Assembly: GCA_025458465.1 (NCBI GenBank) | Contig: JALOSK010000091.1 | Coordinates: 1 to 14,055, forward strand | Direction of reading: 5' to 3' | DNA: 14,055 bases | DNA from: Sandarakinorhabdus sp. | GTDB lineage: Bacteria > Pseudomonadota > Alphaproteobacteria > Sphingomonadales > Sphingomonadaceae | Shown: piece by piece, positions 2,957-11,051 of the stretch | Numbering within the stretch: position 1 is the stretch's first letter | Layout: every line of letters begins with the position of its first letter | Translations under genes and position numbers: made by a program | Notes under the pieces: model-generated | Databases searched by the model: none | The model's input: the letters and a program-made list of their open reading frames with translations, nothing else | Told to the model about the DNA's origin: nothing

Positions 2957-4219
2957 TCAGGAGAACGGCTCGTCCAGGCTTTTGGGCGGGGTGGAAAACC
3001 AGCGCGGCCCGGCTTCTGTCATGTAAAAACAATCCTCGATGCGCACGCCGTAGCTGCCGGGCACATAGAGCCCCGGCTCGTTGGAGAAGCACATGCCGGA
3101 AGCCAGCGCCGTTGCCTCGCCATGCACGAGATTGACCGGTTCATGGACATCCATGCCGATGCCGTGGCCAGTGCGGTGTGACAGGCCGGGCAACTTGTAG
3201 CCGGGGCCATAACCGAGCGGTTCATAGACGGCGCGGACGGCATCATCGACACGGCCTGCCGGCGCCCCAACCTGCGCCGCTGCCATCGCGGCCTCCTGAC
3301 CAAGGCGAACATGGTCGAACAGGCGCCGCTGGCTGACATTGGGGCTGCCGTGGACGAGTGTGCGGGAAATGTCGGCATGATAGCCGTCGACCGTACAGCC
3401 ACAGTCCATCAGGATGACCGAGTTCTCGCGCACCAGCTGGCGTTCCTTGGACCCGTGGGGGAGCGCGCTGCCCTCGTTCAGCTGGATGCCGCCCGAAGGC
3501 GTCTGGCCACCAAAGCGGGTGATTTCGGCCGCCATGATCGCGAAGATGTCGGGGCCGGACATGCCGGTTTCGATCCGGGGCGCCGTGGCGCGATAGGCAG
3601 CGATGGTAATGTCGGACGCACGCTGCATCAGTGCGATCTCGGCCGGCGATTTCACCATGCGGCAGGCATTGACCAGCGCGGCGCCGGACCGCACGGCGAC
3701 GCCGGGGAGCGCGCGCTGCAGACCGTCGATGGCGAAGTGGCGGACGGTCTCCTCGATGGCAACGGGGCGGCCCGCAAGCTTGCGCTCCTTCAGCCATCCG
3801 GCAACCAGCGCGTGCGGACTTTCGTCTTCCTGCCAGACCCGGACATCACCGGGGACGGCCAGCATCTCGCGAATGGACGGTTCCTCGAAAAATGGCGTGA
3901 CCACGCACAACGGCCCTTCGGCGGGGATCAGCGCTGCCGTCAGCCGTTCGCTGCGCCACCAGTTGATGCCGGTAAAATAGCGCAGGGACGACCCGGCCTC
4001 GACAAAGAGCGCGCCGATGCCGGCCAGCTGCATCAACGACTGGACCTTGGCCATGCGGGCAAGGCGTTCGGCGGTGGTGATCGGTGCGGCGGCAGCGATG
4101 GGCGTGCTGGCAGGAACACTGCCGATGCCGGCGTAGGCGGCGTCGGACGCCGGAAGCGCGGCAAGGGCGGCGCCGGCCGCACCATAGGCAATCAGCTGGC
4201 GGCGATCGATGCGTGACAT
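2957..4219 (-). CDS. Tat-exported M24 metallopeptidase (Xaa-Pro aminopeptidase/prolidase-like)
   Basis: This 420-residue peptidase would cleave N-terminal or dipeptide bonds, typically at proline, using a dinuclear metal centre outside the cytoplasm. The start at 4219 is preceded by GAGGAGA, and the N-terminus carries a twin-arginine-type leader: DRRQLI at residues 5-10, then an Ala-rich hydrophobic stretch to about residue 30. Residues 45-180 form the creatinase-type N-terminal domain. The pita-bread catalytic domain occupies about 190-410. All five metal ligands are present: D272, D283 (HADISRT), H352 (GHGIGMDVHE), E381 (NEPGLY) and E395 (RIED). Spacing D272-D283 equals the E. coli PepP pair D260/D271, and H352/H359 match PepP H354/H361. 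An in-frame upstream start at 4312 would overlap the preceding small gene and displace the Tat motif, so I rejected it. Exact substrate preference is unknown. Confidence 0.92.
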   Translation of the reverse strand: MSRIDRRQLIAYGAAGAALAALPASDAAYAGIGSVPASTPIAAAAPITTAERLARMAKVQSLMQLAGIGALFVEAGSSLRYFTGINWWRSERLTAALIPAEGPLCVVTPFFEEPSIREMLAVPGDVRVWQEDESPHALVAGWLKERKLAGRPVAIEETVRHFAIDGLQRALPGVAVRSGAALVNACRMVKSPAEIALMQRASDITIAAYRATAPRIETGMSGPDIFAIMAAEITRFGGQTPSGGIQLNEGSALPHGSKERQLVRENSVILMDCGCTVDGYHADISRTLVHGSPNVSQRRLFDHVRLGQEAAMAAAQVGAPAGRVDDAVRAVYEPLGYGPGYKLPGLSHRTGHGIGMDVHEPVNLVHGEATALASGMCFSNEPGLYVPGSYGVRIEDCFYMTEAGPRWFSTPPKSLDEPFS

Positions 4220-4779: not shown

Positions 4780-5724
4780 ATGCGGCGGGTGGTGACGAAT
4801 CTTGTTCTGGCGGTTGCGGTGGCTGCGGTTGCGGTGCCGGCTTCGGCGCTGAATCTTTACGTTTTCGGGGATTCGCTGGTGGATGCCGGCAATGTTTCGG
4901 TGGCAACCGGCGGGGCTTCGCCCAATCCGGCGCAGGGCTATTTCCAGGGGCGGTTCACCAACGGGCTGAACTATGTCGATTATCTGAACCAGCGTTTTGC
5001 CGGTGTGAACACGGCGCCGTCCCTGCTGGGCGGGACCAACTTTGCCTTTGGAGGGGCGCGGGCGATCGGCAACGGGTTCGGCGGCTTTCCGGTGCCCGGC
5101 CTGCCGCAGCAGCTGAACAGCTATTTCGCCGCGACCGGCGGGCTGGCGGACAGCAACGGGCTTTATGTGATCAACTTCGGCGGCAATGATCTGTTCGGCA
5201 TCGCATCGGGCGATACGGGCGGGTTGACCGCCAATGATGTGGTGAACCTGCTGATCGCCAACACGGTGGGCGCGGTGCAATCGCTGAGCGCGGCCGGTGC
5301 CGGCAAGATCCTGGTGACCGGCATCCCGATCGGCGGCACGCTGGGCGTGACCATCGAAGGCCTGCTGCAATCCTCGCTGGACGCCGTGGAGCCGGGCCTG
5401 CAGGCGGGGCTGTTCCGCTTTTCCTATCTCGATTTCTATGATCGCCTGTTTGCCGATCCGGCGGCCTATGGCTTTGGCCAGGGCATCAACGTCACCTCCA
5501 ACTGCCTGGCGGATCGCACGCCGGTGAACGGATCGATCAACTGCGCCGGCTATTTCAGCTTTGATGGCACGCATTTCACCGCACAGGTGCAGCGCGGCAT
5601 CTACCGCGATCTGGTGCAGGTGCTGGGCGTGCCGGAACCATCATCGTGGGCGATGTTGATTGCCGGCTTCGGCCTGGTGGGCGCGGCGATGCGCCGGCAG
5701 GCGCGGCAGGTGGCGGCTCAGTGA
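4780..5724 (+). CDS. GDSL/SGNH-family hydrolase with PEP-CTERM sorting signal
   Basis: The product is 314 residues and is a probable esterase/lipase exported across the inner membrane and then processed by an exosortase. GGGGAG at 4768-4773 precedes the ATG by six bases. Residues 1-23 form a signal peptide. SGNH blocks follow in order: block I FGDSLVD with nucleophile Ser32; block II NFAFGGA with Gly near 91-92; block III FGGND with Asn136; block V DGTH with Asp262 and His265. All four catalytic elements are present. The C-terminus has VPEPSSWAM at 284-292, a hydrophobic helix to about 303 and the basic end RRQAR, which is the sphingomonad-type PEPxxWA sorting signal. The exosortase is not in this window. 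Two Cys (242, 255) may form a disulfide. The stop overlaps the converging dnaE2 remnant by seven bases. Substrate unknown. Confidence 0.93.
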   Translation: MRRVVTNLVLAVAVAAVAVPASALNLYVFGDSLVDAGNVSVATGGASPNPAQGYFQGRFTNGLNYVDYLNQRFAGVNTAPSLLGGTNFAFGGARAIGNGFGGFPVPGLPQQLNSYFAATGGLADSNGLYVINFGGNDLFGIASGDTGGLTANDVVNLLIANTVGAVQSLSAAGAGKILVTGIPIGGTLGVTIEGLLQSSLDAVEPGLQAGLFRFSYLDFYDRLFADPAAYGFGQGINVTSNCLADRTPVNGSINCAGYFSFDGTHFTAQVQRGIYRDLVQVLGVPEPSSWAMLIAGFGLVGAAMRRQARQVAAQ

Positions 5725-8700
5725 AAATCCCGGCTTTTGGGGATCACCCGCACGTCCCTTGGGTGGCGCGCCTTTGACGGTGGGGGTTTGCGTCCGGCCG
5801 GCCCGTGCACCAGGTCTTCACTGGCGCGGGCCAGGGGCGTGGTGGGATCGTGGGCGTCGGAAAGCCGGTCCAGCACGGCGCTCATGTCGGTGATGTGGGT
5901 GGCCATGAGGTGCATCACGCCTTCGGGGCTGCGCTGCACCTCGCCGTCCACCTGCATCAGCCGGCTGGCCATGATGGCGCGGCGGAAGCGTTCGAACAGC
6001 CGCGCCCACACCACCACGTTCACCACGCCGGTTTCATCTTCCAGCGTGATGAAGATGGCGTTGCCGCCGCCGGGCCGCTGCCGCACCAGCACCACGCCGG
6101 CCACGCTGGCCCGCCGGCCGTTCTTCGCCGCAGCAAACTGCGCGGCGGTGCGCACGCCGGGGAAATAGCGCCGCAACAGCGCCAGCGGGTGGGCGCGCAG
6201 GGACAGGCGCAGTACCTGATAATCGGCGGCCACTTCCTCGCCGGGGGCCATCAGCGGCAGATCGCTGCCCGCCTCTTCGCCCAGTTCGCTGGCCTGTGCC
6301 GCTGCGAACAGCGGCAGGCTGTCTGTCGGCGTGCGCAGCGCCTGCCAGCCGGCCTCGCGGCGATTGAGATTGAGCGACGCGCAGGCATCGGCATCGGCGA
6401 GCAGTTTGAGCGCCCGCGCCGGCAGCCCGGCCCGGGCGAGATGTTCCAGCGTGCGGATGGGCCGGGCGACCGCGATGGCGTGGGCCCATTCCTGGTGAAA
6501 GCCGCTGATCTGGCGCAGGCCCAGCCGCAGCGCGAGGGCGGGCGCCTGCCCTTCCAGCGTGCAATCCCAGGCGCTGTGGTTCACATCGACGGGCAGCACC
6601 GTCACGCCATGTTCGGCGGCATCGCGGACGATCTGGGCGGGGGCATAGAAACCCATCGGCTGCGCGTTCAGCAGCGCGGCGGCGAACACCGCCGGGTATC
6701 GGCACTTGAGATAGGCTGAAACCCACACCAGCCGCGCAAAGGCAATCGCGTGGCTTTCGGGGAAGCCATAGGAACCAAAGCCCTTGATCTGGTTGAAGCA
6801 GCGTTCGGCAAAATCGCGATCATAGCCGCGCGCTGCCATGCCTTCGATCAGCTTGGTTTCGAAAAACTCCATCCCGCCATTGTGGCGGAAGGTGGCCATG
6901 GCGCGGCGCAGGCGGTTGGCTTCGGCGGGCGTGAAATTGGCCGCCGTGATGGCCAGCTTCATCGCCTGTTCCTGGAACAGCGGCACGCCCAGCGTCTTGC
7001 CCAGCACCTGGCGCAGTTCATCTGGGTCGTGCGGCGGTTTCGGGCTGGGGAAGTTCACCGCCTCCCGTCCCTGCCGGCGCCTGAGGTACGGGTGCACCAT
7101 GTCCCCCTGAATGGGGCCCGGCCGCACGATGGCAACCTGGATGACAAGATCATAGAATTCGGCCGGGCGAAGGCGCGGCAGCATGTTCATCTGCGCCCGG
7201 CTCTCCACCTGGAACACGCCGATGCTGTCACCCTTCTGCAGCATGGCATACACATCAGGCGCATCGCCGGGCACATTGTCCAGCGTGTACTGATGGCCGA
7301 TGTGGGTCTCGATGAACTCGAAGGCGCGCCGGATGCAGCTCAGCATGCCCAGCGCCAGCACATCGACCTTCATCAGGCCCAGCGCGTCGATATCGTCCTT
7401 GTCCCATTCGATGAAGGTGCGATCGGGCATGGCGGCGTTGTGGATCGGCACCAGTTCATCCAGCCGCGTCTGCGTGAGCTTCCGGACTGTCGGGATCAAT
7501 CCCGCTTTCGGCGAAGCGCTCGCGCTCCATCGTGCTCGCGTAGCTGCCCCACACGGTGCTGGACAGGCGGCTGGTGAGATCCTCGCTCAGGCCCAGCACC
7601 TTGCCCACCTCGCGCACCGCGCTGCGCGGGCGATAATGGATCACGGTGGCGGCGATGCCGGCGCGCTCGCGGCCATAGCGTTCGTAAATCCACTGCATCA
7701 CCTCCTCGCGGCGCTCATGCTCGAAATCGACATCGATGTCGGGCGGCTCCTTGCGCTCTTCGGAAATGAAACGGGAAAACAGGAGATTGTGTTTGGCTGG
7801 ATCAACGGCCGTGATGCCCAGCACGAAACACACCGCGCTGTTGGCGGCGCTGCCGCGGCCCTGGCACAGGATGCCGCGCGATTGCGCGAAGGCGACGATA
7901 TCGTGGACGGTGAGGAAATAGGGCGCATAACCGGCACGTGCGATGATCCGGAACTCTTCCGCCAGCAGCGCCATCAGCCTGGGCGGCACGCCACCGGGCC
8001 AGCGTTCGCGCGCCTTTTGCAGCGTCAGCGTTTCCAGCCAGCCTTGCGCGGAATAACCCGCCGGCACCGGTTCATTGGGATATTCATAGCGCAACTGATC
8101 AAGGCTGAAATCGATGCGGGCCAGCAGCCGCGCCGGTTCCAGCACCGCGTCAGGGCGATCGCGGAACAGGCGGGCCATTTCGGCGGCGCCCTTCAGATGG
8201 CGTTCGGCGTTGGGTTCCAGCCGGGTGCCGGCCTGTGCCAGCGTCACGCCGGCGCCGATGCAGCGGATCACATCGTGCAGCGGGCGCTGCGCCGGCGTCG
8301 CGAACAGCGGCGCGCTCAGCGCCAGCAGCGGCACGCCCTGCCCATCGGCCACGGCAGCCAGCGCCGCCAGCCGGCGCCGATCATCGCCACGCCCCCACAT
8401 CATCGCGCCCTGCCACAACCGGTTCGGGCAAGCGCGCGCCAGTTCGGCCAGCCGGCCCTGCTGGCCAGGCCCGGGCGGCAGGGCGATCAGCAGCAGGCCA
8501 TCCTGATGATCGAGCAGATCGGGAAGGTGCAGGATGCACGATCCCTTTTCGGCCCGCCGGTTGCCCAAGGTGAGCAGCCGGGTGAGCTGCCCCCAGCCGT
8601 GCCGGTGCGCCGGAAAGGCGATCACATCCGGCGTGTGATCCGCAAACACCAGCCGCGCACCAACCGCCAGCTTGAACGGCGGCGGTTCCTGGCCGGCCTC

Positions 8701-8901
8701 CTGCGCTGCTTCGGCCAGTTCGCGCACTGCCACATGGGCGCGCACCACGCCGGCCACCGTGTTCCTGTCGGCAATGCCGATACCGGCATGGCCCAGCGCC
8801 TGCGCCGCGGCCACCATCGCCGCCGGGCTGGAGGCGCCGTCCAGGAACGAGAAATGGGTGGCCGCGGCCAGTTCCGCAAAGCCTTCGGGCAGCGCCATCA
8901 T
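5718..8901 (-). pseudogene. dnaE2: Error-prone C-family DNA polymerase DnaE2/ImuC, disrupted by an internal deletion with frameshift
   Basis: DnaE2 is the translesion polymerase of the SOS mutagenesis complex with ImuA and ImuB. The first 474 codons (8901 to about 7480) carry the PHP domain (THFSFLDGAS near the start) and the palm motif PDIDVDF (residues 387-393). The frame then runs into TGA at 7456-7458. The remaining 586 codons, from about 7478 to 5718, are in another frame. They begin at LTQTRLDELVPI and hold the second palm motif MKVDVLALGML (Asp codon 7362-7364), the fingers and tandem HhH region, and a C-terminal OB fold. Intact relatives have about 26 more residues at the join, including a GFPRHLSQHVGGF-like segment. 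The gene length is 3184 nt, not a multiple of three; adding about 77 nt would restore a product of about 1086 residues. The ATG at 8901 (or 8898) lies 13 bases after the imuB stop. An assembly error remains possible. Confidence 0.9.
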
Positions 8902-8914
8902 GCCAGCGGCCCGA

Positions 8915-10435
8915 TCACACGAACTGGCCGTGCACATACCAGCGCGGATGCGTGGCTTCGGCCCCATAAAGCCCGTGGCGCAGCAGCCACAAACGGCGGC
9001 CACTGGCGGTTTCCACGCGCCAGTAATCGCGCGTCAGGCCGGCGCCGTCCTTCCGGCGCCACCATTCCGCCGCGATGCGTTCCGGCCCTTCGGCCGCCGC
9101 CACATCATGCTGCTGCCCCCGCCAACGGAAACGGCGCGGCGGGCCATCGGGCACCTCCGCAAGCACTTCTATGGGCTGCGGCGGATCGAACAGCCGCCAG
9201 GGCCGGGCCGGTGGTTCTCCGGCTGCGGGCGCGGGCCATCGGCCAGGACTGCTGCCGATGAAGCTGGCGCGTTCGGGCACATGGCTTTCGGCCCGCGCAA
9301 GCCGCAACAGCCGCTGCCGCCCCAGCCGGGCCGCCAGCCTGTCCAACAGATCGGCAAGCCGGGTTTCATCGCCGCTGTCGCCATCCAGCCCCGCCTGCGC
9401 TTCGGCCAGCGGTGCCACGGCGGGCACCACCAGCCGGAGCAGATCATAGCCGAATCCGGGATCAAGCGGATCATTGAGGGCCGCGATGCGTTCATCGAAC
9501 AGGCGCAGCAGCACAGACACATCGCGCTGCGGCCGCCCGGTTTCCACGGCGACTTCGCATGTATGGCCATCGGCGCGAAACAGCATCAGCACGAAACGCC
9601 GACCGCCCTCTCCGCGTCGCGCCAGTTGCGCGGCACAATCGGCAAGCATGTCGGCCAGGCAGGCGTGCACGGCATCAAGGCTGGCAATCGGGCTGGCAAA
9701 GCGGCGGGTGGCGGCCACCAGTGCCACCGGCAACAACGGATCAAGCGGCTGCGACGCGGCTTCGGTGAGGGCATCGAGCGCCGTCACCAGCCCTGCCCCG
9801 AAGCGCGCGGCCAGCGCGGCGCGCGGGCGGGCGGCCAGATCGCCGATGGTCTTCAAGCCGGCGCGGCGCAGCGCGACCTGCACGCGATCCTCCTCGGTCA
9901 GCGCGGCAATCGGCAGATCGGCGATGCGCGCCGCTCCGAAGCGTGCCAGCGCCAGCGCGGCCGCCGGCGTGAAAGCCAGCGCGGCGCGCACGGTGAGGCC
10001 CTGCGCCTGCGCCCAGTCCACCACCTGCTGCACCAGCGCCGTTTCGCCGCCGAACAGATGCGCCGCACCACTGGTGTCGATCAGGATGCCGTGCGGTGGC
10101 CGTGCCGCCGTCGCCGGCGACCAGCGTCGCGCACGCCGCGCCAAGCGTTCCAGAAACGCCGCGTCTCCATGCGGATCATGCGCCGCCACCGCCACATCGG
10201 GCAGCAGGGCCCGGGCATCGGCCAGCGCCAGGCCAGGATGCAGGCCCTGCGCCATCGCAGCGGGATTGACGGCGCGGATCAGTTGCCGTCCGCGTTCGCT
10301 GGCAACCAGCACCAGCGGCGTTTCAGACGGTGCTTCAGGCGGCCCGCCTTGCTGCAGCCGCTGGGCGGAAAGGAAGGGCAGCGCCAGCGCCAGGATGCGC
10401 CGCTGCGACTGCGGCGCCGGATTTCCTGTGGTCAC
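8915..10435 (-). CDS. imuB: ImuB, catalytically inactive Y-family polymerase-like subunit of the SOS mutasome
   Basis: ImuB bridges the sliding clamp, ImuA and DnaE2 during damage-induced mutagenesis. Residues are counted from GTG 10435 (506 aa). The canonical start RRILALALPF appears at about 12-21; there LPF replaces the metal-binding Asp of active Y-family enzymes, as is normal for ImuB. ILIDTSGAAHLFGGE follows at about 117-131. A helix-hairpin-helix lies near 180-210, and a little-finger-like region near 230-340. QAGLDG at 347-352 is a candidate clamp-binding motif of the QxxLxx kind. The C-terminus (YWRVET, HPRWYVHGQFV) is typical of the family. An in-frame TTG at 10483 is the other possible start. 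Either start overlaps imuA, by 101 or 149 bases. Family assignment is secure; the start is not. Confidence 0.92.
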   Translation of the reverse strand: MTTGNPAPQSQRRILALALPFLSAQRLQQGGPPEAPSETPLVLVASERGRQLIRAVNPAAMAQGLHPGLALADARALLPDVAVAAHDPHGDAAFLERLARRARRWSPATAARPPHGILIDTSGAAHLFGGETALVQQVVDWAQAQGLTVRAALAFTPAAALALARFGAARIADLPIAALTEEDRVQVALRRAGLKTIGDLAARPRAALAARFGAGLVTALDALTEAASQPLDPLLPVALVAATRRFASPIASLDAVHACLADMLADCAAQLARRGEGGRRFVLMLFRADGHTCEVAVETGRPQRDVSVLLRLFDERIAALNDPLDPGFGYDLLRLVVPAVAPLAEAQAGLDGDSGDETRLADLLDRLAARLGRQRLLRLARAESHVPERASFIGSSPGRWPAPAAGEPPARPWRLFDPPQPIEVLAEVPDGPPRRFRWRGQQHDVAAAEGPERIAAEWWRRKDGAGLTRDYWRVETASGRRLWLLRHGLYGAEATHPRWYVHGQFV

Positions 10436-11015
10436 GCCCGAGGGTGATCGCCAGACGCGGCGGACCGGGGGCGCCGGCGGCAAGACGCCGGGCCGGGGCG
10501 GGATCGGCCTGCCAGCGGGTGAGCGCGGCGCTGGGGCGCGGCGGACCGTGGCGGACGATCAGGGTGAAGACGCCATGCGCCGCCGCAACCAGTTGCAGCC
10601 GGCGGGTGGCAGTGAGATTCAGCGCCGGCAGCGGCCGGATGGTATCGATCACGATGGCGCCAAGCGCGGTGCAGCGCTGCGCTTCGGCCGCGGCGCGCAG
10701 CATGGCCAGCGGATCGGGCGCGGCCACCAGCCAGAGCCGCGCCGGATCGCCGCCAAGTTCGGCGATGCCATCGCCATGCAGGTGGCCTTCGGGCGCCCGG
10801 ACATCGGTGATCCACAGGATCGGGCCGGGGCGCGGACAGGCCAGCGCCAGCAGCAACGCGAAGCCACTCGCTGCCGGGCCATGGGCTTCATGGCTGCCCG
10901 CCAGGCAAAGCCCGCCATTGAGCGCCGCATCCAGCCGCCCACCATCCAGCGCCAGCCGGCCCGCCGGGACGAGGGCAGATGCAACGGGCACAGACAGGCG
11001 GACAGGCAGGGACAA
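10335..11015 (-). CDS. imuA: ImuA, RecA-like SOS mutagenesis accessory protein
   Basis: The product is 226 residues from a TTG start. ImuA is the first subunit of the ImuA-ImuB-DnaE2 mutasome, related to the SulA/RecA fold without a proper Walker A. GGRLDAALNGGLCLAG at residues 25-40 and SHEAHGPAAS after it mark the region equivalent to the nucleotide-binding loop. Further family features are GPILWITD (64-71), the DPARLWLVAA segment (90-99), and LTATRRLQLVAAA (134-146). Position as the gene before imuB and just downstream of a LexA box confirms the call. No ATG is available in frame; TTG 11015 is only one option and GTG 10991 another, and no good Shine-Dalgarno is visible for either. The C-terminal tail from about residue 194 overlaps imuB and reads as low-complexity Ala/Pro/Arg, so the authentic end of the protein may once have been shorter or in another frame. 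Confidence 0.8.
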   Translation of the reverse strand: MSLPVRLSVPVASALVPAGRLALDGGRLDAALNGGLCLAGSHEAHGPAASGFALLLALACPRPGPILWITDVRAPEGHLHGDGIAELGGDPARLWLVAAPDPLAMLRAAAEAQRCTALGAIVIDTIRPLPALNLTATRRLQLVAAAHGVFTLIVRHGPPRPSAALTRWQADPAPARRLAAGAPGPPRLAITLGRDHRKSGAAVAAAHPGAGAALPFRPAAAARRAA

Positions 11016-11036: not shown

Positions 11037-11051
11037 GTTCCACTTTTGTTC
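11037..11051 (-). promoter_or_regulatory. LexA (SOS) box upstream of imuA
   Basis: The plus strand reads GTTC at 11037-11040, seven bases, then GTTC at 11048-11051. That is exactly the GTTC-N7-GTTC operator known for LexA in many alphaproteobacteria. It lies 22 bases before the imuA start and overlaps the candidate -10 element. A GAAC at 11029-11032 forms a second arrangement, GAAC-N4-GTTC (11029-11040), which resembles the Gram-positive LexA site. The cassette should be repressed until DNA damage triggers LexA cleavage. No lexA gene is in the window. Confidence 0.85.

Follow-up and report, generated by a model that had tools for sequence, protein, structure and literature searches.

Split dnaE2 gene of a Sandarakinorhabdus draft genome: a 77-nt loss that is very probably an assembly error

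The DNA polymerase gene dnaE2 (imuC) of Sandarakinorhabdus sp. is written in two pieces in the available draft genome, and we consider it very probable that this split arose by a fault in the assembly of the draft. This is the most likely cause because near-identical relatives have the gene whole and because similar small losses and duplications are found elsewhere in the same draft. The organism itself most likely possesses an uninterrupted dnaE2 of 1086 codons as the last gene of a LexA-controlled imuA-imuB-dnaE2 cassette, as predicted from the comparison of sequences. The window, i.e., the stretch of 14,055 nt that was analyzed, represents the whole of contig C143, one of 374 contigs of a draft that comprises 2.50 Mb and is 75.9% complete.

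The location of the cassette genes and of the break is compiled in Table 1. The complete dnaE2 region extends from 8901 to 5718 on the minus strand; its upstream frame runs into a stop codon at 7458-7456 and its downstream frame spans 7499 to 5718, in agreement with the description in the first-pass annotation. The 5' part encodes the PHP domain and most of the DNA_pol3_alpha domain; the first and the second catalytic aspartate are located in it (codons 7740-7738 and 7734-7732). The 3' part supplies the remainder of DNA_pol3_alpha, in which codon 7364-7362 specifies the third catalytic aspartate, as well as the finger, HHH_6 and OB domains. The missing residues are thus situated between the second and the third of these aspartates. 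We take these three residues to be the equivalents of D401, D403 and D555 of E. coli. All domains of the DnaE2 subfamily (PHP, DNA_pol3_alpha, finger, HHH, OB) are present over the two pieces, and the NCBIfam DnaE2 profile is matched by the first piece up to position 478 and by the second one from position 505. The NF004225 scores amount to 504 and 772 bits, and either piece by itself remains below the cut-off of 939. A single chain with all three catalytic aspartates, which are split over two frames, is not encoded on the contig, and neither of the predicted products could, as written, act as a polymerase.

Table 1. Coordinates of the imuA-imuB-dnaE2 cassette and of the dnaE2 break in the window
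Feature	Position	Strand	Remark
3' part of dnaE2/imuC	5718..7499	-	593-aa open frame; homology starts at its residue 8
5' part of dnaE2/imuC	7456..8901	-	481 aa including 7 out-of-frame residues ahead of the stop
dnaE2 breakpoint	7479..7480	-	77 nt of relatives absent between these bases
imuB, Y-family-like protein	8915..10483	-	no lesion seen; start position provisional
imuA	10335..11015	-	assigned by position and a weak ImuA match (25.8 bits; curated cut-off 150)
LexA-type box GAACN7GAAC	11037..11051	-	21 nt ahead of the TTG start of imuA

The extent of the loss was determined by comparison with 106 of 113 loci, which match both flanks of the break and include some genomes twice (107 loci were reduced to 102 non-redundant ones in the later k-mer test); the other seven comprise four stretches from the genome of the window itself and three distant ones. 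The net loss is 77 nt relative to 90 of these loci, and 83 (six loci), 78 (four), 80 (three) or 74, 79 and 84 nt (one each) relative to the other 16. Alignments of near relatives place the breakpoint between 7480 and 7479. The missing stretch corresponds to 26 codons less one base, because the 26th missing codon keeps its last base, which makes the loss 77 rather than 78 nt, and it includes the HLSQHVGGF-type palm motif. The first-pass annotation, which had proposed a loss of 77 nt, a conserved palm segment of about 26 residues that is absent in any frame and a normal length of about 1086 residues, was therefore right about the lesion, since intact equivalents from other assemblies comprise 1086 residues, of which precisely 26 lie between the two points. 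The loss is clean, and dnaE2 is otherwise well preserved. A deletion between direct repeats was rejected, as neither a repeat search nor the near-relative alignments revealed a direct repeat at the ends of the 77-nt loss.

The organization of the locus resembles the SOS-regulated imuA-imuB-dnaE2 cassette that harbors the polymerase ImuC/DnaE2: the window shares its gene order with dnaE2 as the last gene after imuB and the weakly matching imuA, its domains and a predicted LexA-type box ahead of imuA. It differs from the known cassette in the broken frame and in the 26 palm residues that are absent as assembled. The GAACN7GAAC pattern occurs twice in the window, compared to an expectation of 0.21, and a predicted LexA-type site is present in 66 of 70 long relative loci within the first 4.6 kb examined. 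The gene family, the cassette and its predicted regulation are ordinary, and the earlier impression that imuA and imuB are functional in appearance agrees with our analysis, in which both genes and the LexA-type box look normal. A search for a second dnaE2, which had been suggested before, revealed no DnaE family members in the same genome (76% complete) other than dnaE2 of the window and a fragment on contig C10; the latter is probably the replicative dnaE, because it is just 31% identical. An ordinary pair of dnaE2 and imuB on contig C4 of genome G019 is accompanied by a second, diverged pair (47% and 39% identical; G019:C17:12771-15720).

Two further observations concern other parts of the window. 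Positions 973-1015 are occupied by a dispersed hairpin-forming repeat (fold z-score -1.9) with many similar copies in four relatives; 1.52 Mb of G001 yielded 15 matches, and the sample of the draft (G000) two short ones. This repeat overlaps the listed start of the open frame at 968-2929, whose true start is thus probably located further in. Positions 4780-5724 encode a GDSL-type lipase with a PEP-CTERM end, and the end region (5617-5717) matches many places in the relatives, presumably other PEP-CTERM genes.

The fragmentation of the draft into 374 contigs and its incompleteness speak for an assembly error in general terms. The first specific line of evidence is the presence of whole dnaE2 genes in other assemblies. 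A search with the protein of the relative L034 retrieved two continuous polymerases of 1086 aa, P0261 and P0264, which are located on three and two contigs, respectively (longest 380,787 bp). Their identity with the two pieces of the window is 98.7% (5') and 99.7% (3') for P0261, and 98.5% and 99.8% for P0264, corresponding to eight differences each in 1060 residues. This similarity suggests that they originate from the same or a very near species, and the protein comparison documents that the 26 residues lost in the window are present in frame in both of them, with all three catalytic aspartates in a single chain. The extra sequence and the continuous frame, which the first-pass annotation had named as evidence against a loss if seen in reads, are accordingly found at the level of these two proteins. 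A total of 282 of the 357 listed proteins, with the window's own two left out, span both pieces, and the number of residues between the two points is 26 in 267 of them, 28 in 12 and 34 in one; the alignments of the remaining two are rearranged or partial. Among the best 120 matches listed per search, both broken pieces came only from a contig exactly as long as the window (14,055 bp). P0001, which is the 3' piece of the window, represents a 90% cluster of seven member sequences, some of which could be broken as well. The missing piece was also sought elsewhere in the draft with 141 nt of the relative L011 as query, which retrieved both flanks in the window and otherwise short matches, the best of them 21 nt on contig C300 in apparently unrelated sequence.

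The second line of evidence is that unrelated genes of the draft carry similar lesions, more often than those of the control. We compared 40 other contigs of the draft (215 kb) and the window with 1.52 Mb of the relative G001, and 400 kb of the relative G010 were examined against G001 by the same tests as a control. Five of the 40 sampled contigs consist entirely of N and one contains a gap of 11 N (13.7 kb of N in total); nearly all comparable genes come from 15 of the 41 sequences sampled, which were joined into one set, because G001 was fetched in part. A scan for frame changes without a coding filter returned four candidates for 63 genes of the draft and 15 for 154 genes of the control. 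With a coding filter based on codon position 3, three frame changes were retained in 52 draft genes (45.8 kb) versus none in 149 control genes (162.7 kb). One of the three (L223) is a false positive that sits 5' of a probable start. The true frame-breaking losses are those in dnaE2 (77 nt) and in an ABC1-kinase gene on contig C290 near position 1584 (17 nt), and two versus none is a small count, in which one of the two is dnaE2 itself. The open frame of the ABC1-kinase gene comprises 306 aa compared to 442 to 531 aa in 22 of 23 relatives of the same genus, and the remaining one (G023) exhibits only a distant match.

An in-frame loss affects the gene prs (L231, G000:C45, 2730-3602), which lacks, near position 2890, 63 nt or 21 codons of a conserved block that is present in G001 and in three aligned solved PRPP synthetases. 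The draft contains no other full-length prs and no other match that exceeds the cut-off of the family, and the family is represented in all 14 of the 14 control genomes. Three in-frame gaps (5, 13 and 21 residues) were detected in the draft and five (5 to 9 residues) in the control, and the one of 5 residues, found in L119, may be natural. A direct count of exact tandem duplications, with 20 nt as the smallest unit, gave three in about 216 kb of readable draft sequence including the window (39, 61 and 24 nt), whereas G001 and G010 together contain a single one of 44 nt in 1.92 Mb. The 39-nt duplication is located in a gene for an S10 peptidase on contig C100, near position 9430. The 61-nt duplication of L214 (G000:C50), which starts at position 324, breaks, as judged by eye, the frame of a protease-like gene just ahead of its PEP-CTERM end, and the in-frame duplication of 24 nt on contig C310 (L227) may be natural. 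Finally, the 11-N gap of contig C210 stands in place of about 58 nt in G010, as estimated from the flanking matches, which shows that the distance was misjudged there.

Contig-joining and gap-closing errors are a known class of faults in draft genomes. The draft resembles this class in its small losses, exact tandem duplications and misjudged N gap, all of which are rare or absent in the compared relatives; it differs in that the faulty step is a deduction in the present case. We infer that neighboring contigs were joined end to end without settling their true distance. A real gap at such a join would result in a loss and a real overlap in an exact tandem duplication, and end-to-end joining would thereby explain both kinds of lesions. 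Our literature search found no description of exactly this kind of assembly error. A collapse of the assembly graph at a shared k-mer was also considered and is unsupported: with L034 as the sole reference and 102 loci, the most widely shared 21-mers are located about 60 nt downstream of the loss (56 of the 102 loci, versus six in the lost stretch). The earlier alternative of a recent loss or an assembly collapse hence stands with respect to an assembly fault, which is supported by the other lesions and the whole copies, and lacks support with respect to a collapse at a repeat or k-mer.

The competing scenario that fares best, though it is improbable, is a real, recent and strain-private deletion of 77 nt that turned dnaE2 into a pseudogene next to a retained imuA, imuB and LexA box. 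The clean loss in an otherwise well-kept gene would be in accordance with such an event, and a frame break in a dispensable gene is what a pseudogene would look like; Pseudomonas aeruginosa and P. putida are able to grow after deletion of imuC (PMC5261740), which documents that other bacteria can dispense with the gene. The listed matches from other species include broken DnaE2 frames, too. Arguments against a real deletion are the whole near-identical dnaE2 copies and the parallel lesions in unrelated genes: a lesion of this kind affects prs, which all 14 control genomes possess, and exact tandem duplications are far above the rate of the relatives. If the deletion were real, the strain would lose ImuC-dependent induced mutagenesis. 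For this case, the first-pass annotation had envisaged an ImuA/ImuB pair kept without its polymerase and a reduced induced mutagenesis, for which we found no support beyond the sequence itself. Even less likely is a combined scenario, in which dnaE2 was truly lost, the SOS-controlled imuA and imuB were kept, and the genome is really accumulating small deletions and tandem duplications; such lesions would befit a genome with disordered repair.

The broken frames from other species shift these odds little, because both queries were cut at this place. At least five non-homologous residues terminate 58 of the 120 listed upstream matches, and these ends, numbered after the intact protein, are distributed over residues 400 to 880, with 16 falling within 440-519 and 12 within 800-839. 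We read no hotspot from this distribution, since queries cut here favor such matches and the ends are spread along the gene. DnaE2 of other species apparently consists of two pieces on contigs of 58,403, 14,918, 5,799 and 8,217 bp, with a break within residues 470-517; the pieces were paired solely by equal contig size, and such hits are favored, as both queries end at the break and solely proteins of a similar size come into consideration. Two individual frame changes were observed in dnaE2 of other records. In the relative L010 (genome G008), the change occurs at an insert of about 139 nt (about 3966-4106), which holds a long inverted repeat with N at its center, and in L090 (4388-5922; Sphingomonas melonis AS2.3) it is located in the 5' half of the gene.

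A mixture of strains in the sample, a part of which carries a real deletion, with the minor form kept by the assembler, would be consistent with the near-identical whole copies on other contigs. It does not account for the lesions of both kinds that unrelated genes of the draft exhibit, and is very unlikely. A loss of dnaE2 in the whole lineage was examined on the basis of G022, the nearest relative according to the ABC1-kinase gene (94%; next 88%), which lacks an imuB match and contains DnaE of the replicative type only. This candidate was rejected: contigs C87 (from base 1) and C48 of G022 match the sequences that flank the cassette in the window, and the cassette probably fell between these contigs. 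A split yet working polymerase, whose pieces are made separately or by programmed frameshifting, is suggested by the overlap of the two open frames and a possible TTG start at 7499 for the second one, and it can nevertheless be dismissed, because no reading frame supplies the 26 conserved palm residues, 280 of the 282 listed proteins that span both pieces have 26, 28 or 34 residues there, whole copies are seen in what their identity suggests to be the same species, and just seven out-of-frame residues after the 5' part leave no room for an intein half.

An erroneous assembly has consequences for the interpretation of this genome beyond dnaE2. Three further suspicious indels, namely the losses of 17 and 63 nt and the duplication of 39 nt, were found in 52 genes (45.8 kb), and an apparent gene loss in this draft is hence not trustworthy by itself. 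Scans for pathway losses in such drafts need a prior check against near-identical copies. With respect to dnaE2, the other assemblies indicate that the species retains the whole gene.
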